Positions 844 through 21,843 of a stretch of 52,318 nucleotides of DNA are shown here, piece by piece. The notes beneath the pieces are model-generated. The model had not been told where the DNA came from and searched no databases. It was given only the letters and a program-made list of their open reading frames with translations. Position numbers and translations under genes: made by a program. The stretch is from a virus, in IMG/VR virus record IMGVR_UViG_3300006870_000021, positions 1 through 52,318 of that record; one strand, written 5' to 3'. Every line of letters starts with the position of its first letter. Position 1 is the first letter of the stretch.

Positions 844-1025
844 ATACCAACCTCTTCAATTTTAATATCTTTTCCTTGCCATGACCAAATAGTATGATCG
901 TACCAAGTATGAGATCCTGTACTTTGCGATTCGGCAAAAATATACAAACTTGTTTCAAGTTGAACTATCTTCTTGCCATCTTTCCAGTGACTTATGTAAC
1001 TTAAACATTCTTTAAATTTAGACAT
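828..1025 (-). CDS. Small hypothetical protein (65 aa)
   Basis: This 65-residue protein contains many aromatic residues (HTWYDHTIWSWQ). No family is recognised and no signal peptide or membrane segment is visible. The ATG at 1025 is preceded by a GGA-containing purine run. Its 5' end overlaps the 3' end of the 1001-1798 gene by 25 nt, and its 3' end overlaps the convergent fibre gene by 16 nt. It is the last gene of the leftward run that begins near 6625. Confidence 0.5.
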   Translation of the reverse strand: MSKFKECLSYISHWKDGKKIVQLETSLYIFAESQSTGSHTWYDHTIWSWQGKDIKIEEVGIHPNE

Positions 1026-1798
1026 TTTTCTTTTCCGTATTCGCTTAAATTTTTTATAGTATCAAATAATAATCGTTCTGTCTCTAAACTGTAATCTGTT
1101 CTAGATCTATATGCATTGATTATACCTTCGGCTCTGCGAAATCCGTTAATGCTTGATTTCCAAAATTCGGCTGCATTATCTAAGTCTAACGCTGTATCGA
1201 CTTCAAAGAATACACTATCTTTAAAATAAAAATTTTCATTTACAAAGTGGTTTACTAAAACATGATTTGGACTGTAATATGCAAGATTCTTTTGTTTACA
1301 TTGTACTCCTAAGTTATAATATGCATCGACTACTTTTTTAATATATGATTTAAAGTCTTCAACAACATTATTACTATTCGTCATTATATTAAATAACATA
1401 TAAGGCGGCGGATAACCTAACTCGCCTGGGCTACTAAAATAAGTATAGATATATTGTTCACCTTCTATTTGAACAGATGAGTAATTTTTTAATGTAGGAA
1501 ATTCAGGCATGGGATCTAACTTTTGATAATTTGAAATACCCCTAATTTTATTAGGATGGTATTCTTGCAAACAATGCATGTCTCCGTTAACTTTTAGACA
1601 ATGAACATATCTATAGCTAATTGTTTTTATTTCCTCATCGGTTATGTCCCACACACAATAATCAGGTCTATCTTTATATATGTAAAGCTTAGTAATAGAA
1701 TCTCTTGGATTTTGTTTTACAAACTCGTCAAATGTTTTTGTCCAGTTATCAAAGGTATAACATTTATCAACTATTATTTGTTTTAAATCTTCAATCAA
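1001..1798 (-). CDS. Hypothetical protein (265 aa), TTG start
   Basis: No family is recognised with confidence. The start is a TTG at 1796-1798 that overlaps the TGA stop of the upstream oxygenase-like gene (TTGA) and follows an AAGGA ribosome site at about 7 nt. This supports TTG over later codons. A segment near residues 165-200 (YYSPNHVLVN, then an acidic FFEVD) loosely recalls the catalytic and metal loops of kinase-fold proteins, as in the 16484-17176 gene. That resemblance is too weak for a name. It is translationally coupled in the oxygenase array. Confidence 0.6.
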   Translation of the reverse strand: MIEDLKQIIVDKCYTFDNWTKTFDEFVKQNPRDSITKLYIYKDRPDYCVWDITDEEIKTISYRYVHCLKVNGDMHCLQEYHPNKIRGISNYQKLDPMPEFPTLKNYSSVQIEGEQYIYTYFSSPGELGYPPPYMLFNIMTNSNNVVEDFKSYIKKVVDAYYNLGVQCKQKNLAYYSPNHVLVNHFVNENFYFKDSVFFEVDTALDLDNAAEFWKSSINGFRRAEGIINAYRSRTDYSLETERLLFDTIKNLSEYGKEKCLNLKNV

Positions 1799-2340
1799 GG
1801 TATTTCCTTTTGACTTATTTGAAGTACAATTCTAGGTGTAAGTCCTATATTAACACTTCCGTGTAAGTCATTGTCTTGATCGTACCTAAACAAGTCACCT
1901 GACGCATATCCGCTAACAAATTTATTTTCGTGTATAAACACATGCCCAGGTTCATAATCTTTCCATGGCATCCAAAATCTATAATTATTGTCGTGTACAT
2001 TTACAGTATCTCTGTGTAGCGGCATAAACTGTCCCGGCATCTGCTTTACTATCCACCAGTCTCCTTGTAAATATTTGTTAAGCTCGCCCATATCTAAGTC
2101 AAAAGGACAGTTACGATTATCAAATATTTCAGCCATGATTAGATTATTTCCATACGGACCATTAGTAAACATATCGGCTTGGTTATCATCTGTGGCTAGT
2201 GTTTGGTCTACATTAATTTCAACGTCATCATCTTTGCCGTCATGATCTTTCCAAGGACTAATCTCTATACCCTTAGTAGAAATTAACGTATCTATCCATT
2301 CTTGTTTAACTAAGTGATTAAAATTACCGTAAAATTTCAT
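1795..2340 (-). CDS. 2OG-Fe(II) oxygenase-like protein, array copy 1
   Basis: This is a predicted double-stranded beta-helix dioxygenase. From the ATG at 2340 it has 181 residues with H109-x-D111 (PLHRD), H160 (DLHGS) and R170 (TPRIVLQ). That is the order of two metal His, metal Asp and 2-oxoglutarate Arg in this superfamily. The upstream ATG at 2355 is rejected because it would bury the GGAG ribosome site that lies 7 nt before 2340. The four paralogues also begin with M-[KEI]-x-[YF]-x-x-N. It overlaps the SGNH gene upstream by 17 nt. The substrate is unknown, and these folds can also act as small-molecule or protein hydroxylases. Confidence 0.72.
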   Translation of the reverse strand: MKFYGNFNHLVKQEWIDTLISTKGIEISPWKDHDGKDDDVEINVDQTLATDDNQADMFTNGPYGNNLIMAEIFDNRNCPFDLDMGELNKYLQGDWWIVKQMPGQFMPLHRDTVNVHDNNYRFWMPWKDYEPGHVFIHENKFVSGYASGDLFRYDQDNDLHGSVNIGLTPRIVLQISQKEIP

Positions 2341-3070
2341 ATAAGTGCTCCGCATATTTTATATGAGCATCTTTATTTGGATGCCCCCAGGCTAGTCGTT
2401 CTTCACAAAAAAAATCTAAACCTTTATCTGTTAAAAATTTAGATTTACTTTTTTCGTATAAATCTAATATTATAGGCATAGATGAAATAATATTATTATT
2501 CATAGCAGGAACAATATTTATATTGTAGTATTCTAATACTTGTAAGTTTTTGACAAAATCCCAAGATATTCTGTCATCCGAAAACCAATCTATTAGTGCC
2601 TTGTCAGTCTGTTCATTAATAACAGGTTTTATATCTCCTGTATCTTTTACTCCTAATAAACCTTTGTACGGCCATAATAATGATGGTAACTGAAAAGATT
2701 CTACAGTTTTATTAAATATTGCATTGCGTGTTGCTTTAGTGAGTGAGACAATTACTATATCATTGTTAGTAAACTTATAATTGTTTTCAAAAACTTGATA
2801 TACAATTTTATCTAAACTATTTCCGCTTTCGGCATAATTGCAACATTGTAAATTTAGTTTATCTGCTAATAATTGCGGCCAAGATATTAGTTTTTGTTTT
2901 TCTTTTATAGCGTTGTATTCTTCTTGTAGATTCTCAGTTTCTAACTTTTTAAAAAATTTACGTGGATCATCAGACGTTGCTAATCTATAGTCGTTAATAG
3001 ATAATTCGTGTGCTAATAATTCTTCACCAGTGGCATAACTACAACCAAATACATATAATTTACTCATCAT
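2324..3070 (-). CDS. SGNH/GDSL-like hydrolase-fold protein
   Basis: This 248-residue protein begins YVFGCSYATGEE, which resembles SGNH block I with Ser as nucleophile. YAESGNS follows near residue 80, like the block with catalytic Gly/Asn. RLAWGHPNKDAHIKYAE near the C-terminus resembles the Asp/His block. The family removes acyl groups from carbohydrates, lipids or peptides. It sits inside the oxygenase array between copies 1 and 2, sharing 11 nt with the gene before it and 17 nt with the gene after it. The start is one of two adjacent ATG codons (3070 or 3067), and the ribosome site does not decide between them. A second SGNH-like protein lies at 17167-17859. Confidence 0.6.
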   Translation of the reverse strand: MMSKLYVFGCSYATGEELLAHELSINDYRLATSDDPRKFFKKLETENLQEEYNAIKEKQKLISWPQLLADKLNLQCCNYAESGNSLDKIVYQVFENNYKFTNNDIVIVSLTKATRNAIFNKTVESFQLPSLLWPYKGLLGVKDTGDIKPVINEQTDKALIDWFSDDRISWDFVKNLQVLEYYNINIVPAMNNNIISSMPIILDLYEKSKSKFLTDKGLDFFCEERLAWGHPNKDAHIKYAEHLYEILR

Positions 3071-3614
3071 ATATTGTAAATTGAAACGTTAGTCTTTCTG
3101 ATAGCCCTATATTTGCTGCGCCGTGTATTGCAAATGGATCATCGAATTCATATACATCGCCTGCTTTATATGGCCCAATTAATTTATCATCGTATATTAA
3201 AATATGACCAGGTTCATAATCTTTCCAACTCATCCAATAACGTACACAATTTTTTTCAAACTTTGTTGTTCTATCGCTGTGTATAGGAAGTACATGACCG
3301 GGCTTATATTTAAATAGATTAAAATAAGTTCCGCTAGTTCCATCTTTGTATGTAGTTACCCAAGGCGGTATACCTATATCAAATGGAAAGTTTCTCCCGT
3401 CAAATATATAATACATTAAAGACTTAACATCGTAACCTGCATCGCCGTACTTTTTTTGAAAATCACAGAACTCTGCACGTTCTCCTCTTTCAATTGCACC
3501 TTCAATGTCATTATCAACAAACTCGGCTTTTGGTTGCTCTATGCCTTCATTCTCGAGAGCATATGCAATCCATTCGTCTTGTAGCCAGTCTCGATAATTT
3601 CCTATATACTTCAT
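3060..3614 (-). CDS. 2OG-Fe(II) oxygenase-like protein, array copy 2
   Basis: This paralogue of the neighbouring oxygenase-like genes has 184 residues, with H112-x-D114 (IHSDR), H164 (AIHGAANIG) and R174 (SERLTF). The shared KDYEPGHI motif near residue 131 occurs in copies 1 and 5 almost unchanged. The stop of copy 3 and the start of this gene overlap by 4 nt, so translation is coupled. The facial triad is complete, so it is probably catalytic. The substrate is unknown. Confidence 0.72.
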   Translation of the reverse strand: MKYIGNYRDWLQDEWIAYALENEGIEQPKAEFVDNDIEGAIERGERAEFCDFQKKYGDAGYDVKSLMYYIFDGRNFPFDIGIPPWVTTYKDGTSGTYFNLFKYKPGHVLPIHSDRTTKFEKNCVRYWMSWKDYEPGHILIYDDKLIGPYKAGDVYEFDDPFAIHGAANIGLSERLTFQFTIYDE

Positions 3615-4138
3615 TGTTCTTCCTCATATAATGTTACTTGTAAAACTACACGAGGTGTTAAACCTATATTTGCTGCTCCGTGTAGACCTTGTGCATCGTC
3701 GTATTCGTATATATCACCCTTTTTATAGTTTGTTACTATTTCATCTTGAAACTTAAATATATGTCCTATTTCCCAATCTTGTAAAGGGATCCAAAATCTC
3801 TGAGCATTTTTTTGTACAGTAGTGTGCGGGTCAACATGCATCGGCATAAAGTCTCCTGGCATCATTTTTGTTAACCACCAGTGTCTTGATCTTCCACATT
3901 TATGGAATTCTGGTAAATCAAAAGGACAATTGTTTTTATCAAACATTTGAAAGTAAGTAGCTGTTGGATCATATCCAGCATCGATTGCTTTTTGCCACTC
4001 TTTTTCTCCTTCAGGTCCCTGCGGCTTTCCTCCGTCTCTCGGCCTATGCAATCCTTCGTTTTCTAAAATTAATTTTCTCCAAGTATCGAGTGTTTCTTCA
4101 GATACATCTAAATTCTTCATGTTATCTATGTATTTCAT
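3611..4138 (-). CDS. 2OG-Fe(II) oxygenase-like protein, array copy 3
   Basis: The product has 175 residues with H101-x-D103 (MHVDP), H153 (GLHGAANIG) and R163 (TPRVVLQVT). The C-terminal half is very close to copies 1 and 2. The N-terminal third differs and is shorter, as if the array diversifies in the substrate-facing part. The ATG at 4138 follows a GGATGAAG purine run and overlaps the end of copy 4 by 17 nt. Confidence 0.72.
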   Translation of the reverse strand: MKYIDNMKNLDVSEETLDTWRKLILENEGLHRPRDGGKPQGPEGEKEWQKAIDAGYDPTATYFQMFDKNNCPFDLPEFHKCGRSRHWWLTKMMPGDFMPMHVDPHTTVQKNAQRFWIPLQDWEIGHIFKFQDEIVTNYKKGDIYEYDDAQGLHGAANIGLTPRVVLQVTLYEEEQ

Positions 4139-4688
4139 TTTTTACTTCATCCTTTTTATAATATGCAGAAACTTGCAATATTATACGAGTAGTCGAACCT
4201 ATGTTTATTGCTCCGTGTAGTGCTTTTGTTTCATTATACAAGTATAGATCACCTTTATTATATTTGCTTACGGTTATGTCTTCGTATACAAATATGTGTC
4301 CTGGGTCATATTCTGTTAATGGCATCCAATACCTTCGTGTGTTTTTGTCGTCACCTCTTGGATTATCTCTATGGACCGGTATATATTGTCCGGGATACAT
4401 TTTTATTATCCACCAAGTAAAGTCTTCATCTGGCTGAATCCAAGGAGGATCAATTTTAAAACTTAATCCATCCTTTTCTAAAAGTTGAAATTGTACTAAG
4501 TCAGTTCCGTAAACTTTATAAATTTCCTCCTCAGACTTATCCATCGGCTCACGCTTGCCGTTTTCAATTTCCTCAAAAATATTTATATTTTGAAACATGT
4601 CTTTCGGTACGGACAACCCGGGTGTGTTTGTTATTTCTTCAATCCAAGAAGGATTGATCCAGTTTTTATAATTTTTAACAAACTCCAT
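4122..4688 (-). CDS. 2OG-Fe(II) oxygenase-like protein, array copy 4
   Basis: From the ATG at 4688 the product has 188 residues. An in-frame TTG one codon upstream is rejected because AAGGA is spaced about 6 nt from the ATG. Triad residues are VHRD near 106-108, LHGAINIG with His near 158, and TTRIILQVS with Arg near 168. Two Trp residues precede the metal motif (TWWIIKMYPGQ), as in copies 1 and 5. It overlaps both neighbours by 14-17 nt. Confidence 0.72.
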   Translation of the reverse strand: MEFVKNYKNWINPSWIEEITNTPGLSVPKDMFQNINIFEEIENGKREPMDKSEEEIYKVYGTDLVQFQLLEKDGLSFKIDPPWIQPDEDFTWWIIKMYPGQYIPVHRDNPRGDDKNTRRYWMPLTEYDPGHIFVYEDITVSKYNKGDLYLYNETKALHGAINIGSTTRIILQVSAYYKKDEVKNEIHR

Positions 4689-5376
4689 CAATGTTCCTTG
4701 AAGGTTTATAGTCTACTATTTGTAAAATACATCTGTTTGTTGTACCTAAATTGCAAGCACCGTGCCAGTCACCTGCGTAGTCAAACTTATACACATCACC
4801 TTTTTTATAATTAGAAACTTCTTTATCACCTATAATAAATATGTGTCCTGGTTCGTAATCAGTCCAAGGCATCCAATATTTATTTATAGGTATATCAGGT
4901 TTTGCTCTATCAGTATGTACAGGCATTAAGTCTCCTGGTTTCATTGTACTAAACCACCAAGTAATGTGTTTACCTTTATAGTCTAAAAATGGCGGAGGAT
5001 TGTCTAAAAGGTCAAATGATAAATCAAATTTTTCTAGTAGACTAAAATGATTCGCATATACATCATATCCTGAGTTTGTATACATGTCATATTCTTCGCC
5101 CATTTCTCGATCCGGATCGAGATAATCTATATGTATCTTTGCATGTTTAACTGCTTTATCATTAGGATCTAATGTGTTTAGATGTTCTTGTATATTTAGA
5201 TAATCTTCCTTTGTATGTATGTAACTTATGTCTTGTATAAATTCACGTAGTATCGGATTAAATCTTGCTTCATTTCGCAAACTATGTTTTGGCATTTCAA
5301 ACCCAGGATTTGACAACACTTCTTTACACCAGGTATCCGGTATCCAATCTGCATAATTACCAATATATTGTATCAT
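4675..5376 (-). CDS. 2OG-Fe(II) oxygenase-like protein, array copy 5 (long)
   Basis: This is the longest paralogue at 233 residues, with about 45 extra residues before the core (the segment near 45-100, rich in charged residues). The core has H154-x-D156 (VHTDR), H205 (DWHGACNLG) and R215 (TTNRCILQI), plus the YEPGHIFI motif. The ATG at 5376 follows a GAGGAAATTAA ribosome site. It is the first gene of the five-copy array in the direction of transcription. Confidence 0.72.
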   Translation of the reverse strand: MIQYIGNYADWIPDTWCKEVLSNPGFEMPKHSLRNEARFNPILREFIQDISYIHTKEDYLNIQEHLNTLDPNDKAVKHAKIHIDYLDPDREMGEEYDMYTNSGYDVYANHFSLLEKFDLSFDLLDNPPPFLDYKGKHITWWFSTMKPGDLMPVHTDRAKPDIPINKYWMPWTDYEPGHIFIIGDKEVSNYKKGDVYKFDYAGDWHGACNLGTTNRCILQIVDYKPSRNIDGVC

Positions 5377-5405
5377 TTAATTTCCTCTACGGAAATACTT
5401 ATGTT

Positions 5406-5966
5406 TTATAAATTAGTTTCTATGTTAAATCGAACACTTAATAAGTATCTAGGGTGTTTTGAAAAATTTGTAACACTATGTGGTGTAGTTACTTTTACAA
5501 CTTTTGGTTTATCTATAGAACACTCGTCTATAACTTTAGGATTACCTATCCATATTGGTCTTAAATGTTGCGAATCATCTGCTGGTAAATTTGGTTTATT
5601 TGTAGGAGTTGCGTATCCAATGTCATAATTACTATCATACCAATACATTGTTGTATCTTGGCAATTAAATATAGGAATATTTAATGCCCAATGTTGATCC
5701 GGTGTAGGAGGATTATGTCCATCTATATGAACTCGTAAACTTTCATTTCCGCTTAACCCACCTAGCACACATATTTTAATTTTTGGATCTTCTGAGAATA
5801 TATCGATGATATCATCTATAATTTTTTCTCGTAACCAGATGATATCATTGTCTGTTTTATCAAATACTGTTATTGATTGCCCGATTAGATCTTTATTAAT
5901 ATACTTGCTAAAACGTTCCTGTATATCTATAAAATTTTTTAAATCTATATCATAGTGTAAGGGCAT
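5406..5966 (-). CDS. Aspartyl/asparaginyl beta-hydroxylase-like 2OG-Fe(II) protein
   Basis: The 186-residue product has H80-x-D82 (RVHIDG) followed by PPTPDQHWALNIPIFN, then H163 (TPHSVTNF) and R173 (HPRYLLSVRF). This layout is that of the Asp/Asn beta-hydroxylase branch of the superfamily and is distinct from the five-copy array next to it. Its ATG shares one base with the TAA of the nitroreductase gene, so the two are coupled. It may be a target-specific hydroxylase, but the substrate cannot be read. Confidence 0.65.
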   Translation of the reverse strand: MPLHYDIDLKNFIDIQERFSKYINKDLIGQSITVFDKTDNDIIWLREKIIDDIIDIFSEDPKIKICVLGGLSGNESLRVHIDGHNPPTPDQHWALNIPIFNCQDTTMYWYDSNYDIGYATPTNKPNLPADDSQHLRPIWIGNPKVIDECSIDKPKVVKVTTPHSVTNFSKHPRYLLSVRFNIETNL

Positions 5967-6625
5967 TAATATTCTACGACTGGAACTTCTTGTCTTTTAT
6001 TTGTAGGATATAAAATTTCATCGTCAACTTGATGTTTTCTGCGGCTTACACCTTCTTGTTTAAACCCTACACCCATTATCAATAAAGGATCATTCTCTAA
6101 ATTTAGTGCTTCTTTAACTTTTACATGATCCATACTTAAACAACAACCAGTTGCATAACCTAACATCTGAGCAGTTAAATTTAAATAACCAGAAACTATA
6201 CCTAAAGCTACATTTTTATCAAAATCTTTCGGTTCGTCAGCAATTCTTTTTTCTTTAAAGTGTGATTCTACTTTATAATAGTCTTCAAAAACTACAACAA
6301 GATTTGCTAATGTTTGACTTTGTGTAGCATCTCCCATTTCGTGATATTTGTCTTCGTCTCGTGGATGCGGATCAACTATTTTAGTACCATCTTCTGCAAT
6401 AGCGTACGGTGCACCGTGTGTTGCTGCGTGTACTTTTTCGATAGTCTCTCTATCTTGTATAAAGTGAACCTTATAGAATGCCACATTTTGTAAACTAGGA
6501 GCTTGTGTTAAGCTTGTTTTAAGTATGTCTAAATCTTCTTGAGGTATTACTTTATCTAAATCCCAATTACGCTGACAGTGTTGGCTGCGAATTATAGCTT
6601 TGCTTAAATTTTTTCTTATGTCCAT
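5966..6625 (-). CDS. Nitroreductase-family FMN oxidoreductase
   Basis: The product has 219 residues. The N-terminal block AIIRSQHCQRNWDLDKVIP with APSLQN is the FMN-phosphate-binding region of the nitroreductase fold. The later segment ALGIVSGYLNLTAQMLGYATGCC and the LIMGVGFKQ strand match the usual C-terminal half. Members reduce nitro groups, quinones or flavins with NAD(P)H, and some fragment FMN. An AGGAG site precedes the ATG. It is the first gene of the leftward run ending at 828 and is divergent from the radical-SAM operon at 6668. It may supply reductant to the redox enzymes around it, which is inference. Confidence 0.75.
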   Translation of the reverse strand: MDIRKNLSKAIIRSQHCQRNWDLDKVIPQEDLDILKTSLTQAPSLQNVAFYKVHFIQDRETIEKVHAATHGAPYAIAEDGTKIVDPHPRDEDKYHEMGDATQSQTLANLVVVFEDYYKVESHFKEKRIADEPKDFDKNVALGIVSGYLNLTAQMLGYATGCCLSMDHVKVKEALNLENDPLLIMGVGFKQEGVSRRKHQVDDEILYPTNKRQEVPVVEY

Positions 6626-6667: not shown

Positions 6668-7750
6668 ATGTTCCATTTTAACGAGCTAACACAAATCCAT
6701 CTTGAAATTACAAATCGCTGTCAAGCAAGCTGTCCTATGTGTAATAGAAATATTAGAGGCGGTTTAGATAATCCTTTAATAAAGAATAATGATTGGACAG
6801 TATCTGATTTTAAGAAAATTTTATCTCACAGTGTTTTAGATAAAATCACTGGTTTTTATTTCTGTGGAAATTTTGGCGATCCTATTATTAATAATGATTT
6901 AATAGATATGTGCAAATATGCAGTAGAGTATAAACCTGAAATAAACATCGCTATACATACAAATGGTAGCGCACGTACTACACAGTGGTGGGAATTGTTA
7001 GCCCAAACATTACCCAAAGATAGTAGAGTAGTTTTTGCACTGGATGGTTTAGCCGATACACATTCATTATATAGGATCGGTACTAGTTTTGAAAAAATTA
7101 TTTCAAATGCTCGGGCATTTATTAATGCAGGAGGAACTGCTGAATGGTGTTTTATTAAATTTAAACATAACGAGCACCAAGTAGGAGAAGCAGAAAAATT
7201 AGCAAAAGAAATGAAATTTAAACATTTTTCAGTAAAGAATAGTAGTCGATTTATCGGTGAACCAAAATATGCTGTTTTAGATTCAAATGCAACTACTACA
7301 CATTATATAGAACCTCCTAGTGATAACAAGATGTCTTTTATAAGTAACGATGTTATTAAAAACTATAAAGAAATAGTTAATAATAGTGAGATAAATTGTT
7401 ATGTTTTACACACGAAGGAAATATATATTGATGCTAATAGGATAGTATATCCTTGTTGTTATCTTGCAAGTGTGCCGTTTACAAATATACCAAAAGATGA
7501 GACAACTCAGGCTCGAATAGATATAAGAACACAGCACGAAGAATATATTACAGATCTTGGCGGATATGATAATATTAATTCTTTACAAAAATCTATCGAA
7601 GATATTGTAAATGCAAAGTTATGGCATACAGTTTGGAACAAATACTGGTTTAAACAAAAAATGATTACCTGTGCAAGAAGTTGTGGCACAATTAAAGAAA
7701 TATCAAAACCTTATGAGCAGATTGTTACTACGGAAACTATAAATGGATAA
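6668..7750 (+). CDS. Radical SAM enzyme (SPASM-like C-terminal Cys region)
   Basis: The product has 360 residues. C18-x3-C22-x2-C25 (CQASCPMC) is the 4Fe-4S/SAM-binding motif. GNFGDP near residue 75 and TNGS near 107 match the following SAM-contact strands. Cysteines near 250-275 (INCYVLH, YPCCYL) and near 338-345 (TCARSCG) resemble an auxiliary-cluster region. It overlaps the next gene by 8 nt and starts a three-gene radical-SAM operon. Enzymes of this architecture modify peptides or small molecules, and no precursor is seen beside it. Confidence 0.8.
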   Translation: MFHFNELTQIHLEITNRCQASCPMCNRNIRGGLDNPLIKNNDWTVSDFKKILSHSVLDKITGFYFCGNFGDPIINNDLIDMCKYAVEYKPEINIAIHTNGSARTTQWWELLAQTLPKDSRVVFALDGLADTHSLYRIGTSFEKIISNARAFINAGGTAEWCFIKFKHNEHQVGEAEKLAKEMKFKHFSVKNSSRFIGEPKYAVLDSNATTTHYIEPPSDNKMSFISNDVIKNYKEIVNNSEINCYVLHTKEIYIDANRIVYPCCYLASVPFTNIPKDETTQARIDIRTQHEEYITDLGGYDNINSLQKSIEDIVNAKLWHTVWNKYWFKQKMITCARSCGTIKEISKPYEQIVTTETING

Positions 7751-12865: not shown

Positions 12866-12870
12866 TGTTT

Positions 12871-14096: not shown

Positions 14097-15674
14097 TACT
14101 AATTTTTTGTGCAAGAATTTAATTAGCGGCTTGAAATATTTTTCTTCAATCTGTTCCTTCATAAGTTGTTGTTCGTCTACACCAGACATGTATTCGTAAT
14201 ATTCGCGTCCAGTTTTAAAACTCATTAGTTTATTAAAATCAAAATGATCATTGTCTATACAACTTATATAAAAGAAATTTCGTTTAAAATCTATATGAGA
14301 GTCTAATCGCTTTTGCCACTTAACTGCAAGGTCAGTTGCCTTCTCAAATGTATCAATATCAGTTCCGTCATTTTTAATCCAGCGCCACGGTACATCTTCG
14401 TATGGAAACTCATAGCCGTATTTTTCTGCTTCTAGTTCAAATGCAGCGTTAAATCTATGTTTTGTAAACTCGGTATGTTTTATTATACGTAGGGGTGTTG
14501 TGTTAATGTGTCCTACCGGTCTATCAGGTCTATCAAAATACTTACAACTATTCTCAAATGCTTCTACAGTATCTTTTGGCAACCCGCAGATCATCCCAGT
14601 CATTATCCAAGTATCATGACCCCATACCCTAGCACACTCTTCTAACGTATCAGTAATGCGTTTGGGATCCATCCCCTTACCAATAACTTTACCTGCTTCT
14701 CTATTAAGTGTTTCTATGCCAAAGTAGACTTCTCTTATGCCTATATCTTTTGCAAGTTGAATATGATCTCTATTATTAACTATAATGTCTAATCTCATGT
14801 AGCACCAGAATGCAGGCTTAAACGGTAAACGATCAACAACACGCTTCACCATTTGTAATTTTTCAGTACTATCATTAAACGTGTCATCTACTATTGTGTA
14901 CTTCCAAGTACCAAAGCGTTTCCAATTATCCATTAGTTCATTGTATAAACATTCTTCAAATTTTAAATAATCACTTACACGTTTTTGTCCTATTAGCGGA
15001 AAACTGCAAAATTTACAATTAAATCTGCAACCTCGTCCTACTTCTAAAAGCAATGTTTCACTTGGAAGTATAAATGCTTCTGGTTCGTAATCTATCCTGC
15101 TACTCCTAAAATCCCAACTAGGCGATTGTCCTTTCTTGTCATAGTCAATAATTTTAGGATATGAACCAACATTGCCTTTTTTAAGATCTTTCATATAATC
15201 AACTATCATCGTTTCGGCATGTCCGATAAAAACATTATCTATACCAGGAATGTTAATATACATAAACGCCTTAGCTCCGCCTAATATAATTTTACACTTA
15301 GGAGATAAACTTTTTATCTTATTAAAGTATAAGTCGACGTTTGGTCCTGCAAACTCCATACTTAAACTGTCTAATTCATTTTCACTATTTGGATTAAATC
15401 GCATAGATGGCTTACTTGGTTCTCGATGGCTTGATGATCCGTCTGGTAATATAAACGGAAACCATGTACTACTAAATCCTACAGCTAATGTATCTTCATT
15501 CATTGCAAGATCGAGTATTTCACAAAACCTGTCGTAATTTATATAATTTGAAAAGTCAATTACTAGAACAGAATAACCATGCTCACGTAATTCTGTAGCA
15601 ATTCTATGCGAACCACTAGCCCTAGAATAAGTTTCTAGGTCAGGCATATCTCCAAATAATATTATATCATACAT
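14055..15674 (-). CDS. B12-binding-type radical SAM protein
   Basis: The product has 539 residues. Residues 1-180 form a Rossmann-like region as in cobalamin-binding radical-SAM proteins (IILFGDMPDLETYSRASGSHRIA, CKIILGGAKA, VFIGHAE), but the classical DxHxxG motif is not evident. The core follows, with C216-x3-C220-x2-C223 (GRGCRFNCKFCSFP), TIVDDTFN and YFGIETLNREAGKVIGKGM. This is the Elp3/MiaB-like core common to methyltransferases and methylthiotransferases. The substrate is unknown. It is the end of the leftward run from 19811. Confidence 0.75.
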   Translation of the reverse strand: MYDIILFGDMPDLETYSRASGSHRIATELREHGYSVLVIDFSNYINYDRFCEILDLAMNEDTLAVGFSSTWFPFILPDGSSSHREPSKPSMRFNPNSENELDSLSMEFAGPNVDLYFNKIKSLSPKCKIILGGAKAFMYINIPGIDNVFIGHAETMIVDYMKDLKKGNVGSYPKIIDYDKKGQSPSWDFRSSRIDYEPEAFILPSETLLLEVGRGCRFNCKFCSFPLIGQKRVSDYLKFEECLYNELMDNWKRFGTWKYTIVDDTFNDSTEKLQMVKRVVDRLPFKPAFWCYMRLDIIVNNRDHIQLAKDIGIREVYFGIETLNREAGKVIGKGMDPKRITDTLEECARVWGHDTWIMTGMICGLPKDTVEAFENSCKYFDRPDRPVGHINTTPLRIIKHTEFTKHRFNAAFELEAEKYGYEFPYEDVPWRWIKNDGTDIDTFEKATDLAVKWQKRLDSHIDFKRNFFYISCIDNDHFDFNKLMSFKTGREYYEYMSGVDEQQLMKEQIEEKYFKPLIKFLHKKLVSLPTSKREDKFCF

Positions 15675-15675: not shown

Positions 15676-16491
15676 CTAGTAATTATCTAAATGATCTATA
15701 CCTAATTGTTTTCTAAATGATTCTGTAAACTTACCGTCTATGCGCAACCCATAAGTTGGCGACATCACTCTGTTACCACCGTGCCAGTCTTGATCATTCC
15801 AGAATGCAGCGCGAGTGTTTATACCGTGTTTCATCTTTTTATCAGGATCCCATATATAAAACTGATTCCTTGTATCTGGACGTATATGTATAAATTCGTT
15901 ATTGTGTGGCTCGTACCTATCTTTAGGCCATATACCATTATGGGCGCCTAAATCTCTATGTTCAAACGGCAATCCATCTGCTTCGCAATGAAAGAACATA
16001 ACACGACCAAATGATTCAAATATCTCATTAGTTTTAAAGTCTTCTAGCCATTTCATTACATTAGGAAAGTATTCAGACTCTTCTGTTTTCTTTTTCTCAC
16101 CCGGTCTATCATCCCAGTCGCCTTCTTCATATAAAAAATAGTATATGTAAGGATCATATGCCTCCATTGCCATCTTTAAATAACGAGTTATTAGGTTACG
16201 TTGTTTATAATCCTTAAAGTCAGTAGGCCATATTTTCATACCTTCTACTTTTATAGGATCATCATCTGGTAGTGCTTGAAATTCTTCCATTGCAGCATAT
16301 ATAGGTTTCCAATTGAGAATATAACTCATATCTTTAAATTCAAAACCCGGCTTCATCCAAGTGCCTTCTTTTGCAAACCATCTTGCTTCAGCAAATCCTC
16401 GAATTATTTCAGGTTGTAATTTTTCAAATGTAGACATATCTATATATGGTTCTACATCAATATATGTATTACTGTTAATTCCTTTAATCAC
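15676..16491 (-). CDS. 2OG-Fe(II) oxygenase-like protein (large, GTG start)
   Basis: The start is a GTG at 16491 that overlaps the TAA of the upstream gene by 8 nt, with AAAGGA upstream. The 271-residue product has H178-x-D180 (FEHRDL), H237 (DWHGGNR) and R250 (YGLRIDG). The N-terminal 150 residues are rich in Trp, Tyr and acidic residues and are not recognised. The order of motifs supports a dioxygenase of the same broad class as its neighbours. Confidence 0.62.
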   Translation of the reverse strand: MIKGINSNTYIDVEPYIDMSTFEKLQPEIIRGFAEARWFAKEGTWMKPGFEFKDMSYILNWKPIYAAMEEFQALPDDDPIKVEGMKIWPTDFKDYKQRNLITRYLKMAMEAYDPYIYYFLYEEGDWDDRPGEKKKTEESEYFPNVMKWLEDFKTNEIFESFGRVMFFHCEADGLPFEHRDLGAHNGIWPKDRYEPHNNEFIHIRPDTRNQFYIWDPDKKMKHGINTRAAFWNDQDWHGGNRVMSPTYGLRIDGKFTESFRKQLGIDHLDNY

Positions 16492-17176
16492 TATAAATTT
16501 CCTTTGCTTGATTTATAAAACTATCTGTATAATTTGTTCTAAAACTCTCAAAACATAAATGTTGTAGAACAACTAGTGGTTCAGGATCGTTCCAACTTAT
16601 ACCCATTGCTTCGACTTGTTCTTTCATTATACTTTGACGTGTACTATATATATGACTTGCATGATTTGCAATGCTAACTGGTCCTTCTGTATTCAGATAA
16701 TGAAAGAAGTAGTTAAAACTTTTTAATTTACCATCTATAATAAAATAACTAGACGGATGTAAACTATACTTGTACATTCCAATATTTTTATGCGCCTGTA
16801 AGATATCTAACATTTGTTGTTCCCAGTTAGGTATAACTTTGCTATAGTTCTCTACATTACATTTTGCTTTATTCCAAAAATCAATACCGTCAATATCAAA
16901 ATATATTTTCTTTTCTTTGGTACTTATGGTAAACTCTGGAATTAAATGTTGATAACCTTTTAGTTTCATAAATCTTAAACCAAATGATTCTCTATTCATC
17001 TTTTCTTGCATAAGATTAGGATCAACTACTTCGTTTTGTCCTCCGTGATATCCTTCGTCGTTGTAGTACCATTGACAAAATGTTTTTTTATCGTCTGATA
17101 TAAGACTTGTGTAAATTAAGTTGTTTCTACACTTGCCTTCGCCGGGAATATCATTCCAATAATAATTCATTTCCAT
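16484..17176 (-). CDS. Kinase-fold-like protein, probably inactive
   Basis: The product has 230 residues. The segment SLHPSSYFIIDGKLKSFNYF (near 135-155) has the shape of a kinase or aminoglycoside-phosphotransferase catalytic region (HxDxxxxN then DGKLKxIDF). The catalytic Asp, the Asn and the DFG-type Asp are replaced (HPSSYF, SFNYF). FTISTKEKKIYFDIDG could be an earlier hairpin. I infer a pseudokinase or a scaffold. The start could also be the ATG at 17170, which overlaps the upstream stop as ATGA. Confidence 0.4.
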   Translation of the reverse strand: MEMNYYWNDIPGEGKCRNNLIYTSLISDDKKTFCQWYYNDEGYHGGQNEVVDPNLMQEKMNRESFGLRFMKLKGYQHLIPEFTISTKEKKIYFDIDGIDFWNKAKCNVENYSKVIPNWEQQMLDILQAHKNIGMYKYSLHPSSYFIIDGKLKSFNYFFHYLNTEGPVSIANHASHIYSTRQSIMKEQVEAMGISWNDPEPLVVLQHLCFESFRTNYTDSFINQAKEIYSD

Positions 17177-17859
17177 TCTTTTACTAACTCGGTTAATATA
17201 TCTGCAACTTTTTTATGCGTTAAAGGACCCGGATGCAAGTTATCTTTTCCTTTATCTAGGATTGGTGTAAGTTGATTAATGTCAAGAACTTCGTTAGAAT
17301 TGAATGTAAATTCTATACTAGGAATATCTTTAATCTTATCTCGCACGTTGTCTATTACTCTTTTGTTTACTTTTATTATACTTTCGTCTGCTAATAATCT
17401 CAAATATTCTTTATATGCCTTAGGATATAACATTTTACAACCAAAGTGATTATTATGATAAAATATATTGTCCAGTCTTGCCGGTGACCATAATACTCTG
17501 CTACCAAATGCTGTATAATGTTGCCACCTTATGCTGCTAGGCCATGCAATAATTATTCCTTTTGGTGTTAACCTTTTATTCAACAAGGAGTCTATTTCGT
17601 CGGCTACTGTCATAGGTCCTGCACCGTTAATACCTAAATTTAGGACTTTTATTCCTAATTGTTTTTCGAGTATATAACCACAGTTTTCTTTATCTTCAAC
17701 ACCTATGCCCCATACGTGACTGCAACCAAAAAACCAAATTGCATTGTTTGCATATTTTTTAAAATTTGTCTGTCCTAATTTCCTTCTTTTTCCGTATACT
17801 CCGAGATATTCTTTTATATTTGATTTTTTAAATTCTATTAACCTTTTAAGATAGTTCAT
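17167..17859 (-). CDS. SGNH/GDSL-like hydrolase-fold protein
   Basis: The product has 230 residues. WFFGCSHVWGIGVEDKEN is block I with the nucleophile Ser, LNLGINGAGP matches the Gly-containing block, IIIAWPSS is a central strand, and DNLHPGPLTHKKVADIL carries the C-terminal Asp/His. These are better preserved than in 2324-3070. Such enzymes esterify or de-esterify sugars and lipids. Overlaps of 4-10 nt tie it to its neighbours. Confidence 0.65.
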   Translation of the reverse strand: MNYLKRLIEFKKSNIKEYLGVYGKRRKLGQTNFKKYANNAIWFFGCSHVWGIGVEDKENCGYILEKQLGIKVLNLGINGAGPMTVADEIDSLLNKRLTPKGIIIAWPSSIRWQHYTAFGSRVLWSPARLDNIFYHNNHFGCKMLYPKAYKEYLRLLADESIIKVNKRVIDNVRDKIKDIPSIEFTFNSNEVLDINQLTPILDKGKDNLHPGPLTHKKVADILTELVKEWK

Positions 17860-18497
17860 ACTTGTATAACCTTTTTAGCAAATTTTTTAATGCTGCGGCT
17901 GATTAATTCTTCGTGCTTTTGTTTGTTAATAATACCAACAGTGCTTAATAATATTTTAGTTCTATCAGTAGGATCAGCACCGTGTTGAATGTCGTTATTG
18001 TTAAAAGCAAAACACCTATATTTTTCATCTATGTCTGGATATATTTTAACACCATTATGTTCTAAGTAAAACGTATTATGTTTAGGATCAGTTACATATA
18101 TGATATATCTTCTTGGTTCACTTGCATCGTGGTCTGTTTTTGCATCTTGGTGTGCTGGTATTTCGCCCATTTGCATAATAAATCCACTAGTACCTATCTG
18201 ATCAAACGGTAATTCTCTTACACATTTAGCAAGTCCTGGAAACGTATCTTCAAATCCAGGATGAAACACTAAAGATGTGTTGTCTATTGCTTTACGTTCC
18301 TTACTCCAGTCTAACCAAGCATCGTATGTATACCAGCTTTTCGGCTCTTGGCGCAGTGCTACGTAACACCAAGTATGACGATTCTCAGAAAACTCCCAAT
18401 AGTCTGTGTCTTTAATTTTATGTTCATGAAACCAGTCTATTATATCTTGTTCAGGAGGCATATCGAATTCAATATCAATTGGAGTATATAATATCAA
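17856..18497 (-). CDS. 2OG-Fe(II) oxygenase / Asp-hydroxylase-like protein
   Basis: The product has 213 residues with H116-x-D118 (PAHQDA), H172 (IQHGADP) and K181 in place of Arg (RTKILLSTVG). The motif PRRYIIYV and the C-terminal KHEELI.RS match the gene at 19128-19811 (PKRYNVLM, RHKEIIKRS). The two are paralogues flanking the 18494-19126 gene. Overlaps of 4 nt on both sides suggest one coupled operon. Confidence 0.65.
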   Translation of the reverse strand: MILYTPIDIEFDMPPEQDIIDWFHEHKIKDTDYWEFSENRHTWCYVALRQEPKSWYTYDAWLDWSKERKAIDNTSLVFHPGFEDTFPGLAKCVRELPFDQIGTSGFIMQMGEIPAHQDAKTDHDASEPRRYIIYVTDPKHNTFYLEHNGVKIYPDIDEKYRCFAFNNNDIQHGADPTDRTKILLSTVGIINKQKHEELISRSIKKFAKKVIQV

Positions 18498-19126
18498 CTT
18501 ATTTCTCCTACAATTTTTTGCAATTTTGGTAAATCTTTTCTAAAAAATCTAAAAACTAAACCTACTCTATTTGTATCACTATAATTCTCTGTTTCGTGTG
18601 ATATAATAGTATCAACTAAGTACACACTACCGTCAGCATTAAACGTAAAATCTTTGCGTGTTTCGTTTTCATCCCAAAATTTGAATACTGCTTTTGGTGC
18701 TTCGTATATAGGTATGTGTGCTGTATATTGATCCCCTGCATCTACGTGTCTAGATACCTTTCCTTCAGGCGGCTGAACTACCATACTCCATCTAAATGTA
18801 TAAGGCATCATATCTTTTAATTTTTTGACTAGGCCAAACATTAATTCGGTGTCTTCATATAGTCCTCTAGGATGAATGCTTATATTATAAGGAGGACACG
18901 GTATTGACTTATCTATAAGATTACTCTGTATTGCCCATCCATATGGATATGTACACCCAATACCGTTACTTATTATTCTGTCATACCACTCTTCGGTAAT
19001 TTCGTTACCGTTTTTATCCCACGCCCATCTAAGATGCTCGTAGTCATTAACTAATGTATCGTAGTATTCACGTAATGAATCTAGATTTACAGTAAAATTT
19101 AATTTTGTTATTGCATTATCTAACAT
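18494..19126 (-). CDS. Aspartyl/asparaginyl beta-hydroxylase-like 2OG-Fe(II) protein
   Basis: The product has 210 residues with H127-x-D129 (SRHVDAG), H177 (IISHETENYS) and R187 (TNRVGLVFRF). YTAHIPIYEAPKAVFKFWDE matches the strand pair after HxD in Asp/Asn hydroxylases. It lies between two Lys-type paralogues, one base downstream of 19128. Confidence 0.65.
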   Translation of the reverse strand: MLDNAITKLNFTVNLDSLREYYDTLVNDYEHLRWAWDKNGNEITEEWYDRIISNGIGCTYPYGWAIQSNLIDKSIPCPPYNISIHPRGLYEDTELMFGLVKKLKDMMPYTFRWSMVVQPPEGKVSRHVDAGDQYTAHIPIYEAPKAVFKFWDENETRKDFTFNADGSVYLVDTIISHETENYSDTNRVGLVFRFFRKDLPKLQKIVGEIS

Positions 19127-19127
19127 A

Positions 19128-19811
19128 TTAAAACACGATCATTTTATCTTTGTTTACTTCTGTACTTCTTTTAATAATTTCTTTATGTCTTTCTTCATCT
19201 AAAGAACCAGAAACAAATGCCATTATTTTATCTGGTCCAGCATAAGTTGCACCATGTGCATGTTCGTCTAAGGAAAAAGCAAAACATGGTTTTTCTTTTG
19301 TTATATTAGGGTATATAGGTGTGTCTTTTTCGTCCTTACATACATAAAAACTTTTATAATCAAATTTTGTCATTAATACATTATAGCGTTTGGGTTCTAG
19401 ATGCAATCTTCTAGGATCATTGTTTTGTATGCTTAGAGTATCGTCTAATGTTTCACCTTCTATACGATCAGTATGAGCACCGACTTCTTGTCTTTGCCTA
19501 AACAGCACAATATATGAGATATCTTTAAATGGTAATTGCATAAGTTGTTTAGAAAATACAGGAAATGTAGTGTCAAATCCGTTGTAGAATTTACCTTTTT
19601 TCCCAGTATAGACTGTTTTATTTTTTATTTCGTGCCAACACACGTTAATGTCTTTCCACGAGTCTTGTTCTAATCTACTGTAGATTATATATGTATGCCA
19701 TTGAGTACCTAATTCTTCGCTTAACGGTTCGATGCTATCACAGAAATTAATTATATCTTGCTCGTCTGGTAAAGTGAAGTCTAAATCTATAGGTAAAAAT
19801 GCTGTACTCAT
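19128..19811 (-). CDS. 2OG-Fe(II) oxygenase-like protein (first gene of operon)
   Basis: The product has 227 residues with H113-x-D115 (GAHTDR), H186 (HAHGATY) and K195 (PDKIMAFVSG). It is a paralogue of 17856-18497. An AGGAGGT site at 19819-19825 is the strongest ribosome site in the island, and a late octamer AATAAATA lies at 19832-19839. It therefore heads the leftward operon 19811 to 14055, which holds four oxygenase-like proteins, one SGNH, one kinase-like and one radical-SAM protein. Confidence 0.65.
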   Translation of the reverse strand: MSTAFLPIDLDFTLPDEQDIINFCDSIEPLSEELGTQWHTYIIYSRLEQDSWKDINVCWHEIKNKTVYTGKKGKFYNGFDTTFPVFSKQLMQLPFKDISYIVLFRQRQEVGAHTDRIEGETLDDTLSIQNNDPRRLHLEPKRYNVLMTKFDYKSFYVCKDEKDTPIYPNITKEKPCFAFSLDEHAHGATYAGPDKIMAFVSGSLDEERHKEIIKRSTEVNKDKMIVF

Positions 19812-19831
19812 TATTTGTACCTCCTATTGAA

Positions 19832-19839
19832 TATTTATT
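19832..19839 (-). promoter_or_regulatory. Late promoter octamer AATAAATA with strong ribosome site
   Basis: Read on the minus strand, AATAAATA is followed after about 6 nt by AGGAGGT (19819-19825) and, 7 nt further, the ATG at 19811. The predicted start point near 19826 falls just before the ribosome site. This is a conventional late-gene layout for the operon 19811-14055. Confidence 0.6.
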
Positions 19840-19845
19840 TAAATA
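19838..19845 (+). promoter_or_regulatory. Late-promoter-like octamer TTTAAATA, leaderless arrangement
   Basis: One mismatch from NATAAATA. It ends 4 nt before ATG 19850 and 7 nt before ATG 19853, with no Shine-Dalgarno sequence between. It overlaps the oppositely directed octamer at 19832-19839 by two bases, so the two promoters would be mutually exclusive on one DNA molecule. Confidence 0.3.
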
Positions 19846-19849
19846 TAAT

Positions 19850-20470
19850 ATGATGGGATACCGATACGACTTATCAGACACACACTGTAAAATTTATTAT
19901 GAAAGCACTCCTGAATTTGAAGAAGTGCGCGATCTCTGCCTTCAAGAAGACAACTGGCTTAGAAATAATTATATAAAAGAAAATTTAAAATTAGAAGAAC
20001 ACACAGGTTACGGTGTACTATATCAGACTAGCACCGGTAAACCTATGGTAATGGGCGGAGTTTTTAACGACGGTAGATATCCTAGTAATGTAGCTAAACA
20101 AATAAATAGACTTTATACATTCCCTGACTTTAGGATGACAGCAACAGATATGACTGATGGGTTTAGATGTACTTGTAAACTTATTAACGAGCTTGAAGCG
20201 GTAAATAATTACGAAGTATATTTAATAACTATGCAAAATAGAAAGGCTCGTCCGAATAAAGGATATTGGAAGGTTTGGCGCAAGCATATGGATATAGCAA
20301 GTAATGGTGCATGGAATGAGGGTGCAGGATATATACAAACTTGTCCATATCCAGTACAAAAATGTTGGCAAAATTTTGTGTGGCAAGAAAAAGTAAACGG
20401 TGCTATGCTAGAATGGTCACCGAATATAATAGATGATACAGTTTGGTTAGGATTAGAAGAAGGTAAATGA
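19850..20470 (+). CDS. Hypothetical protein, possible GNAT-like acyltransferase fold
   Basis: The start is ATG 19850 or the adjacent 19853. The in-frame ATG at 19799 lies inside the divergent gene and is rejected. The product has about 206 residues. The mid-region GYGVLYQTSTGKPMVMGGVF, followed by a YPSNVAKQINRLYTFPDF segment, has a GNAT-like strand pattern, but the acetyl-CoA loop is not clear. It is coupled to a desaturase and a sulfotransferase by overlapping starts and stops, so a role in modifying a lipid or glycan is inferred only from neighbours. Confidence 0.5.
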   Translation: MMGYRYDLSDTHCKIYYESTPEFEEVRDLCLQEDNWLRNNYIKENLKLEEHTGYGVLYQTSTGKPMVMGGVFNDGRYPSNVAKQINRLYTFPDFRMTATDMTDGFRCTCKLINELEAVNNYEVYLITMQNRKARPNKGYWKVWRKHMDIASNGAWNEGAGYIQTCPYPVQKCWQNFVWQEKVNGAMLEWSPNIIDDTVWLGLEEGK

Positions 20471-21237
20471 ATTTAAATACTAAAATACGATTATTACAAG
20501 CATTCAATCATATTGCAACAGTGCCTGCTGTAGCGTATGCAATATACACACAGCAATATAATTTGTTCTGGGTTGCATTATCTGTATGGTTTATTATAGG
20601 ACCCGTAAGCAGCGTTATAACGCTTCATAGACTGCTTACACATAGAAGTTTTGAAACATATGCATGGCTTGAAAAAATTCTTACATATATTAGTGTAATT
20701 AGTACAGTAGGTCCTACTATAAGTTGGGTTGCATTGCATCGTCAACACCATTCTAAATCAGATAGAGAAGGTGATCCACATTCGCCGTACGTTGACGGTA
20801 AGTTTAGTATAATAGAATCTATTAAAGTATGGCTAGGTTATGACTGGAAGGTTCCAAACATACCTGTGCGTTATGTTAAGGATTTATTTCGTAGTAAAAC
20901 GCATAAATTTATTTTTAATAATTATTTTAAAATAATATTTGCTTATTGTGCAATATTATTAGCAGTTGATCCTATGCTATTTTTGTTTGCATATGTAGTA
21001 CCTGCTAGTATGACAGTACACCTAATTGGATTTGTCAATGTGCTAGGGCATAAACATGGATATAGGAATTATGAAACAAAAGACGGTAGCACAAATAGTT
21101 GGATTGCTAATATTATAAGTTTAGGAGAAGGATGGCATAATAATCATCATGCAAAGCCTAACAAATACTATACCGGTGAACGTTGGTATGAATGGGATCT
21201 AATGGGATTGTTAATTAAAGTCATAAAAACAAACTAA
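20467..21237 (+). CDS. Fatty-acid desaturase
   Basis: The product has 256 residues. Three His boxes are intact: HRLLTH (54-59), HRQHH (91-95) and HNNHH (224-228), the di-iron ligands of membrane acyl-CoA/acyl-lipid desaturases. Hydrophobic segments lie near 12-32, 35-55, 70-90, 155-190. GLGEGWHNNHH-type context (LGEGWHNNHH) is typical of delta-9 enzymes. The ATG overlaps the preceding TGA (ATGA), and the stop overlaps the next start (TAATG). It would introduce a double bond into host membrane lipids during infection, which is inference from the family. Confidence 0.85.
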   Translation: MNLNTKIRLLQAFNHIATVPAVAYAIYTQQYNLFWVALSVWFIIGPVSSVITLHRLLTHRSFETYAWLEKILTYISVISTVGPTISWVALHRQHHSKSDREGDPHSPYVDGKFSIIESIKVWLGYDWKVPNIPVRYVKDLFRSKTHKFIFNNYFKIIFAYCAILLAVDPMLFLFAYVVPASMTVHLIGFVNVLGHKHGYRNYETKDGSTNSWIANIISLGEGWHNNHHAKPNKYYTGERWYEWDLMGLLIKVIKTN

Positions 21238-21842
21238 TGGGAACATTTTATATAGACACACCAGAACTTGCGTATGTACATGTACCAAGAACAGGAATGG
21301 CTATGAAAAAAGTGATTGCTGAATGGTTGCGTCCTAATTTTAATGTGCTTAGTCACGTAGATTGGATGGTAGATCATCCTCACTTAGGTACTGTGAAAGA
21401 ATATTATCCTATAGCAAAGACAATTAGTGTAGTACGAAACCCTTGGCAACGAGTTTTTAGTTTATACCGTAAAGTAAGAGACGAAGGTTACTGGTTAGAT
21501 TGGAACGGACAAACTGTTCTCGAACTAAAACCTATTAATGAATGGGTTGCTGACTATTGCAATCCTAATGTGCCTTTTGAATTTCCACGTTGGTTTAATC
21601 GCTTTACTAATCAAATAGACTTTATAAATGTAAATGGCGAATGGGTTGATTACATATGTAAAGCAGAAAACTTAGAACAAGATCTAAAACCTGTGCAAGA
21701 ATATCTAGGCTGTGATCTACCATTGCCTAATATTTCAGGATATGATCATTGGGAATTTAAAGATTATTTTAATAGTAATAGTATAGCAGCCATAAAAAAA
21801 GTCCACGAACGAGATGTGGACTTTTTTAAATATGTTATCTAA
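21237..21842 (+). CDS. Sulfotransferase-family protein
   Basis: The product has 201 residues. AYVHVPRTGMAMKKVI near residue 12 corresponds to the 5'-phosphosulfate loop. SVVRNPWQRVFSLYRKV near 62 is the 3'-phosphate-binding motif of PAPS-dependent sulfotransferases. It could sulfate a lipid or surface glycan. It is the last gene of a three-gene set with the desaturase. A strong terminator hairpin is encoded inside its last codons, ending 15 nt before the stop. A degenerate relative is at 44327-44818. Confidence 0.72.
   Translation: MGTFYIDTPELAYVHVPRTGMAMKKVIAEWLRPNFNVLSHVDWMVDHPHLGTVKEYYPIAKTISVVRNPWQRVFSLYRKVRDEGYWLDWNGQTVLELKPINEWVADYCNPNVPFEFPRWFNRFTNQIDFINVNGEWVDYICKAENLEQDLKPVQEYLGCDLPLPNISGYDHWEFKDYFNSNSIAAIKKVHERDVDFFKYVI
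21795..21827. terminator. Bidirectional intrinsic terminator within the sulfotransferase 3' end
   Basis: A perfect 12-bp stem, AAAAAAGTCCAC pairing with GTGGACTTTTTT, surrounds a 9-nt loop. On either strand a GC core is followed by a T run, so it can stop both the rightward sulfotransferase operon and the leftward fibre gene (stop at 21844). It lies wholly within coding sequence for the residues KKVHERDVDFF. Confidence 0.85.
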
Positions 21843-21843
21843 C

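Follow-up and report, generated by a model that had tools for sequence, protein, structure and literature searches.

Gene Content of the Island

We analyzed a viral contig from IMG/VR (IMGVR_UViG_3300006870_000021; 52,318 bases, the whole record, hereafter the window) in which 27 densely packed open reading frames (ORFs) occupy positions 1001-21842, beside tail-fiber genes. The segment contains a core of genes that recurs in kept order in other viral contigs: two twitch radical S-adenosylmethionine (radical-SAM) proteins (TW), two partner radical-SAM proteins (RS), a further radical-SAM protein (rS360), a QueC-family PP-loop ATPase (QueCl), two predicted 2-oxoglutarate (2OG) oxygenases (ox225 and ox271), and a protein-kinase-fold protein (g230). 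The genes are listed below with the evidence for each (AF2, AlphaFold2).

1..843 (+): fibA, C-terminal 280 of 318 aa of a fiber/adhesin; 86-aa domain in common with fibB (E 8e-10)
1001..1798 (-): 265-aa protein, possibly kinase-like by eye; no Pfam match, no relative among 80 loci
1795..2355 (-): OXm oxygenase (HRD...H); HxD...H motif and homologue alignment
2324..3070 (-): SGNH-like hydrolase; motif GCSxxxG ... HPxxxxH only, no Pfam match
3060..3614 (-): OXm oxygenase; motif and homologue alignment
3611..4138 (-): OXm oxygenase; motif and homologue alignment
4122..4691 (-): OXm oxygenase, Asp_Arg_Hydrox-like; PF05118 0.011, homologue alignment
4675..5376 (-): OXm oxygenase, Asp_Arg_Hydrox-like; PF05118 0.0025, homologue alignment
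5406..5966 (-): oxygenase-like 186-aa protein (HID...H); motif only
5966..6625 (-): nitroreductase; PF00881 6e-10
6668..7750 (+): core radical-SAM rS360; PF04055 1.6e-7, family in 71/81 records compared
7743..9125 (+): core twitch radical-SAM TW, 460 aa; NF033640 1.5e-118
9122..10036 (+): core radical-SAM RS; PF04055 7.6e-13
10029..10925 (-): core radical-SAM RS, convergent with the RS at 9122..10036; PF04055 1.1e-12
10909..12213 (-): core twitch radical-SAM TW, 434 aa; NF033640 2.7e-97
12161..12832 (-): core QueC-family PP-loop ATPase QueCl; SGGADS, C(x)20CxxCxxC, AF2 model, at least 357 viral relatives
12865..13542 (+): core β-hydroxylase-like 2OG oxygenase ox225; profile against 7v4f 9.5e-14
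13518..14096 (+): OXm oxygenase; motif and homologue alignment
14055..15674 (-): B12-type radical-SAM rSB12; PF04055 1e-14, TIGR04072-like
15676..16491 (-): core oxygenase ox271; AF2 pLDDT 84, Foldseek matches
16484..17176 (-): core protein-kinase-fold protein g230 (230 aa); profile against TTK kinase 7.6e-5
17167..17859 (-): SGNH/GDSL-like hydrolase; NF047474 7e-5
17856..18497 (-): oxygenase-like 213-aa protein (HQD...H); motif only
18494..19126 (-): oxygenase, Asp_Arg_Hydrox-like; PF05118 1.9e-4
19128..19811 (-): oxygenase-like 227-aa protein (HTD...H); motif, clusters with the 213-aa oxygenase-like protein
19799..20470 (+): 223-aa protein, possibly acetyltransferase-like by eye; no Pfam match
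20467..21237 (+): fatty-acid-desaturase-family protein; PF00487 2.1e-22
21237..21842 (+): sulfotransferase-like protein; below cut-off (PF13469 9e-4; phrog_3347 3.5e-5)
21844..23301 (-): fibB, tail-fiber protein (Mtd_N); PF18454 7e-13, phrog_9729, same flank order in many loci
31585..32478 (-): QueE-like radical-SAM, outside the island; phrog_2076 8.6e-52
33284..33970 (-): GTP cyclohydrolase FolE, outside the island; phrog_2197 1.6e-44

A first-pass annotation, made by reading the sequence, had named many of these genes. Its nitroreductase and desaturase were borne out by Pfam, its sulfotransferase is a weak assignment, and of its two SGNH-like proteins one gained a family match and the other retains the motif only. 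It had overlooked the kinase-fold family at 16484-17176 and the QueE and FolE genes elsewhere in the window.

Co-occurrence and Order of the Core Genes

Searches of viral contigs returned 199 relatives of QueCl with the single protein and at least 357 with an alignment. We clustered the ORFs of the loci of the best 80 relatives and counted linkage in the 86 loci left after dereplication at 95% identity of QueCl, 80 of which had enough sequence. The order that was repeated is ox225, then QueCl-TW-RS on one strand and a convergent RS-TW on the other, with rS360, a methyltransferase-like (MTase-like) gene, ox271, and g230 nearby. TW shared the strand of QueCl and lay within three genes of it in 78/80 nonredundant loci, RS did so in 79/80, a convergent TW was present in 65/77, and ox225 lay no more than three genes upstream in 65 loci; the mean pairwise QueCl identity among these loci is 57%.

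Because these loci had been chosen on QueCl, we used ox225 as a second anchor. Among the 57 ox225-anchored loci of at least 15 kb, QueCl was found in 53, TW and RS in 55 each, rS360, ox271, and g230 in 52 each, and the MTase-like gene in 45; some contigs were common to the two scans, so their independence is incomplete. Loci anchored on the MTase-like gene contained GT9 (a DxD-motif family) in 26/27 cases, a nucleotide-sugar-dehydrogenase-like family in 14/27, and QueCl in only 17/27, which indicates that QueCl and ox225 form a sub-module. The core is under purifying selection, with dN/dS between the window and its relatives of 0.09-0.29 where synonymous sites were unsaturated. Variation between loci was seen in the peripheral genes, namely the desaturase, the sulfotransferase, the nitroreductase, and the number of OXm copies.

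Radical-SAM and QueC-Like Proteins

All six radical-SAM proteins of the segment, the number first reported, scored above the PF04055 cut-off of Pfam. The two TW proteins, of 460 and 434 aa, are full-length members of NF033640 (N_Twi_rSAM), scoring 396 and 326 bits against a curated cut-off of 170 bits; we found no assigned function for this family. The RS profiles resemble MoaA, viperin, and cytosylglucuronate decarboxylase. The large phage contigs that we examined had 8-21 PF04055 matches each, a count that takes in two MTase-anchored contigs without QueCl.

The early assignment of QueCl as a QueC-like PP-loop ATPase was upheld. The SGGxDS P-loop and four cysteines are invariant in the QueCl alignment, PF(x)4K is kept, and the best matches of the AF2 model (pLDDT 84) in the PDB were QueC (3bl5, 1.5e-6; 2pg3, 1.9e-6) and then Cap9-CdnD (9nto, 7.4e-6). 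Cap9, of type IV CBASS, joins a deazaguanine to a protein N terminus (PMC11996544, PMC13279940). The canonical catalytic motifs of QueC are YxQxHxxE, VPxRN, and YPDC (PMC13329287). In an alignment with E. coli QueC, all that QueCl keeps of these motifs is the Gln, the loop PG, and the later Lys; because YxQxHxxE and YPDC are not retained and the catalytic tyrosines are lost, we rejected the identification of QueCl as an ordinary QueC.

An MGxS N-terminal substrate motif is typical of the partner proteins of Cap9 and QatC (PMC13279940); for Cap9 the partner is a neighboring CD-NTase that starts with MGGS. We found no conserved MGxS-starting family and recognized no CD-NTase in the loci, and a partner of this type was dropped from consideration. 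In a single lineage, a 124-aa protein whose MGTS start is like the QatB substrate motif is encoded between QueE and FolE (L374:3952-4326, minus strand; L368:3795-4169, plus strand). Some phages encode a second, divergent QueC-like paralogue that adjoins a C12-family gene (L061:1323-2057, minus strand; L253:19308-19988, plus strand).

We surveyed deazaguanine genes in 18 large contigs, 16 of them with QueCl. QueE and FolE homologues were each present in 12/16 QueCl-bearing contigs (PF01227, FolE, in 14/18 overall), QueD was found only in some contigs, and a PF06508 QueC was found in only 1/16. A search for TGT/DpdA with PF01702, positive controls included, found none in the 18 contigs, which are incomplete, so that a divergent DpdA could be missed; a search of the same contigs with CAjan DpdA was also empty, but it had no positive control and is uninformative. 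Since QueE and FolE are present together with QueCl, 7-carboxy-7-deazaguanine (CDG) is, on gene content, a possible substrate of QueCl. The link is not exclusive, because two contigs (G019 and G020) hold QueE/FolE without QueCl. In the window QueE, the spacing of the second to third cysteine is unusual by eye (CxxxC, then a distant CDT).

Oxygenase-Like Proteins

Twelve oxygenase-like proteins had been claimed for the segment, and all twelve have HxD and a later His. For three of them (the 186-aa protein at 5406, the 213-aa protein, and the 227-aa protein) the motif is the sole support. A loose HxD...H regular expression matched 14/27 proteins; since shuffled proteins averaged 6.2 matches and reached 13 at most, this count is only modestly above expectation, and we dropped the expression as evidence in its own right. 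Firmer assignments came from other comparisons. Across 38 diverse homologues of six OXm proteins, G101, H107, D109, G147, and H159 are invariant at a mean column identity of 23%, so that conservation within the family is strong. The profile of the 225-aa ox225 family matched the solved β-hydroxylase 7v4f at 9.5e-14, and the nearest hydroxylase to ox225 is placed by its PDB entry title in nucleoside-antibiotic biosynthesis. Foldseek matched the AF2 model of ox271 (pLDDT 84) to PHD2, proline hydroxylase, and AspH (2e-5 to 1e-4, probability 0.99-1.00); as the TM-score is about 0.35, the match speaks for the fold class only, and the predicted structure matches the double-stranded β-helix hydroxylase class.

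Island Borders and Host-Recognition Setting

The island had been described as bracketed by two inverted fiber paralogues. fibA and fibB are indeed opposite in direction, and they have one 86-aa domain in common (35% identity; 51.2 bits, where shuffles reached 27.7 at most), but the bracketing was wrong. A second contig, IMGVR_UViG_3300025840_003418 (127,599 bases), carries QueC-like, ox225, and QueE genes that are 100% identical to those of the window, and it probably represents the same or a near-identical phage, judged by the identity of these genes. There fibA is complete at 318 aa, and the island runs approximately 30 kb further, up to tail structural genes; we therefore rejected the fibers as brackets, and the common domain marks no island boundary. 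The extension contains more B12-type radical-SAM, amidinotransferase-like, aminotransferase (Aminotran_3, 7.5e-42), MTase-like, and glycosyltransferase-like (GT-like) genes. It also contains sugar genes: a PfkB kinase, a CTP_transf_like cytidylyltransferase, a cupin/MannoseP_isomer protein, a GDP_Man_Dehyd-type epimerase (1.7e-32), and a dTDP_sugar_isom protein (2.6e-28).

fibB is the constant right edge of the island, and several contigs, 115-357 kb long, have the island at the same locus between C34-C50-C35-C31-C30-fibB and tail structural genes. A T4-type gp23 capsid gene on a related 357-kb contig with the core identifies the core carriers as large T4-like phages, and the window segment is about half of an approximately 50-kb host-recognition island of such a phage. 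The window DNA polymerase is nearest to those of Rhizobiales jumbo phages (Sinorhizobium phage Phosso, 50%; Agrobacterium phage Atu_ph07, 45%).

Outside the island, the window encodes a heme oxygenase (34442-34978, minus strand; PF01126, 1.8e-19) and a UPF0093 HemJ-type protein (32683-33108, minus strand; PF03653, 1.4e-46), and the matching contig has a porphobilinogen-deaminase-like gene by eye (L086:15935-16774); these may make up a phage tetrapyrrole set.

Isolate Phages and Bacterial Relatives

Among 50,697 phage records, tblastn at 1e-5 gave zero matches to QueCl, OXm, ox271, the MTase-like protein, or GT9, and TW found matches of 20-24% identity in five Vibrio phages only, one of which has a radical-SAM cluster of its own. 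One bacterial metagenome-assembled genome (MAG; contig JAUHVL010000001.1, L376-L378) has an island of approximately 52 kb between tuf and secE-nusG-rplK-rpoB that contains TW, RS, rS360, rSB12, MTase-like, GT9, desaturase, and QueCl-family genes and a gene for a GT2-like protein. The ribosomal flanks place it on a bacterial chromosome, with MAG chimerism as a residual possibility, and the toolkit is thus not purely viral. When genomes were first scanned with the QueCl alignment, no match appeared; the bacterial members surfaced via the MTase family and then in a profile search, which found QueCl relatives in 7/369 genomes of the MAG's phylum, in several places adjoining TW genes. Two membrane-type proteins of about 166 and 320 aa, conserved as a pair, come after TW and then the QueC-like gene in these bacteria (L379, L380, L381). 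MTase-like relatives (35-40%) also occur in many Rhizobiales chromosomes (Bosea, Ensifer, Mesorhizobium; L281-L360), mostly without the rest of the module, and give little functional information.

Interpretation of the Module

The reading that we favor, at about even chances, is that the module makes and modifies a sugar of unusual type, or some other small unit, for a surface glycoconjugate. The core genes, with the MTase-like gene nearby, would form one biosynthetic module. Sugar-nucleotide enzymes of the same island would supply an activated sugar, radical-SAM and 2OG enzymes would carry out C-H chemistry and hydroxylation, the QueC-like enzyme would adenylate a carboxylate and couple it to an amine, and GT-like proteins would transfer the product. 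The outcome might be an altered host envelope that blocks rival phages or a decorated virion fiber. A surface glycan is favored because of the sugar-nucleotide enzymes in the island, the GT-like neighbors, and the receptor-binding position. That the genes constitute an undescribed multi-enzyme pathway in a T4-like host-recognition cluster, with a heavily modified glycan-type product, is a proposal to which we give equal weight for and against.

Several observations weigh against a glycan product. No glycosyltransferase in the window scored above a family cut-off, and because the GT9 and GT36 profiles matched nothing in Pfam or the PDB sequences, "GT-like" denotes a DxD motif and reading only; the MTase-like profile likewise had no match among PDB sequences. 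The sugar-nucleotide genes are peripheral and variable, whereas the radical-SAM/QueC core is constant, so the former may be cargo of their own. Among QueC-family and AspH-type enzymes are known protein modifiers. The module was read from genes, and its expression, activity, substrate, product, and benefit are our interpretation of them.

The resemblance of the QueCl model to QueC and Cap9 makes protein modification the chief rival, although we consider it unlikely. On this reading QueCl, like Cap9 and probably QatC, would join a carboxylate, of deazaguanine type or other, to an amine of a protein, and the AspH-type oxygenases and radical-SAM proteins would modify fibers or host proteins. The pairing of QueE and FolE with QueCl in 12/16 contigs, with QueC rare and no TGT-family gene found there, suits this scheme, as do the position beside fiber genes and the AspH-like and kinase folds. 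It is countered by the lack of a conserved MGxS-starting family of the kind described for such systems (PMC13279940), the one MGTS protein being confined to a single lineage, by the loss from QueCl of YxQxHxxE and YPDC (PMC13329287), and by the two contigs with QueE/FolE and no QueCl. We kept a protein target in view because of the QueC/Cap9 resemblance and the AspH-like oxygenases. A related and equally doubtful proposal is an undescribed system common to jumbo phages and some bacteria in which a QueC-family ligase and paired radical-SAM proteins conjugate a carboxylate, perhaps CDG from QueE/FolE, to a protein or surface molecule.

Somewhat less probable is a nucleoside, other small-molecule, or peptide natural product made during infection, such as an antibiotic or signaling molecule. 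The MoaA/viperin/cytosylglucuronate decarboxylase-like RS profiles, the nucleoside-antibiotic title of the nearest ox225 hydroxylase, and the amidinotransferase-like and aminotransferase genes of the island all point this way, but the gaps in the window segment are too short for most precursor-peptide genes, no transporter or immunity gene was recognized, and the module is always found with fiber genes. It is improbable that QueCl is a preQ0 synthase for 7-deazaguanine modification of DNA or tRNA: FolE and QueE are present and QueD accompanies them in some contigs, but PF01702 detected no TGT/DpdA in the 18 incomplete contigs, the QueC catalytic tyrosines are lost, and QueCl adjoins TW/RS, away from FolE-QueE. 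Cargo gathered at random in a hypervariable region, its genes sharing no function, would account for the varying peripheral genes but is highly improbable overall and contradicted for the core by reciprocal linkage and by an order kept at about 57% mean identity. A sum of unrelated insertions was one of two findings on which the first-pass reading was to fall, the other being a lack of the double-stranded β-helix or radical-SAM folds; the core co-occurs strongly in relatives, and that reading survives.

The module, rich in radical-SAM and oxygenase chemistry, is conserved in several hundred or more contigs of environmental phages and all but missing from sequenced isolates. It points to a kind of surface or protein modification that is common, though unseen, in the conflict of aquatic phages with their hosts. 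Proteins of the QueC fold have lately been shown to modify proteins in defense against phages, and QueCl brings this fold to the phage side. The chemistry could be tested in a smaller system, that of the bacterial homologues with their adjacent TW and QueC-like genes, and carboxylate conjugation by a QueC-family ligase, if true, would be a new class of biological modification.

Comparison with Known Systems

Like the QueC family (PF06508; QueC, Cap9, QatC), QueCl has SGGxDS, PF(x)4K, a C-terminal four-cysteine site, and its best fold matches there; it differs in scoring under the Pfam QueC cut-off, in its cysteine spacing, C(x)20CxxCxxC, and in being encoded beside twitch radical-SAM genes. 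The island oxygenases have in common with AspH-type 2OG-Fe(II) oxygenases (PF05118; 7v4f) the HxD...H triad and fold and profile matches, but they are mostly under the Pfam cut-off and have many paralogues. The window TW proteins are full-length NF033640 members far past the cut-off, here paired with RS and QueCl. Vibrio jumbo phage K566 (L082) has its own cluster of at least six radical-SAM genes, including TW-family genes, mostly annotated as hypothetical; identity is 20-24%, and no QueCl or oxygenase core was recognized there.

The closest likeness is to the host-recognition cluster of T4-like pelagimyophages and cyanomyophages, a hypervariable region of 35-45 kb mean length with tail fibers, sugar/lipopolysaccharide (LPS) genes, and radical-SAM cassettes, which in T4-like phages lies between VrlC and the neck protein gp14; pelagimyophage cargo includes rfaE, UDP-glucose dehydrogenase, GT8, and radical-SAM cassettes (PMC7029224). 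Our island is likewise large, variable, fiber-bearing, and in the structural region, with fibB at one edge and tail/baseplate-type genes at the other, and it too contains glycan/LPS genes, outside the window on the matching contig. The first-pass annotation had proposed an undescribed modification system next to receptor-binding genes; its double-stranded β-helix and radical-SAM families and the co-occurring core stand, but the setting was already known (PMC7029224). The literature that we found on a radical-SAM/oxygenase phage cluster consists of passing mentions, and the conserved module inside the cluster is, as far as we found, undescribed. What sets the island apart is a specific radical-SAM/QueC/oxygenase core in kept order across hundreds of contigs, where the earlier work mentions radical-SAM cassettes in passing (PMC7029224).

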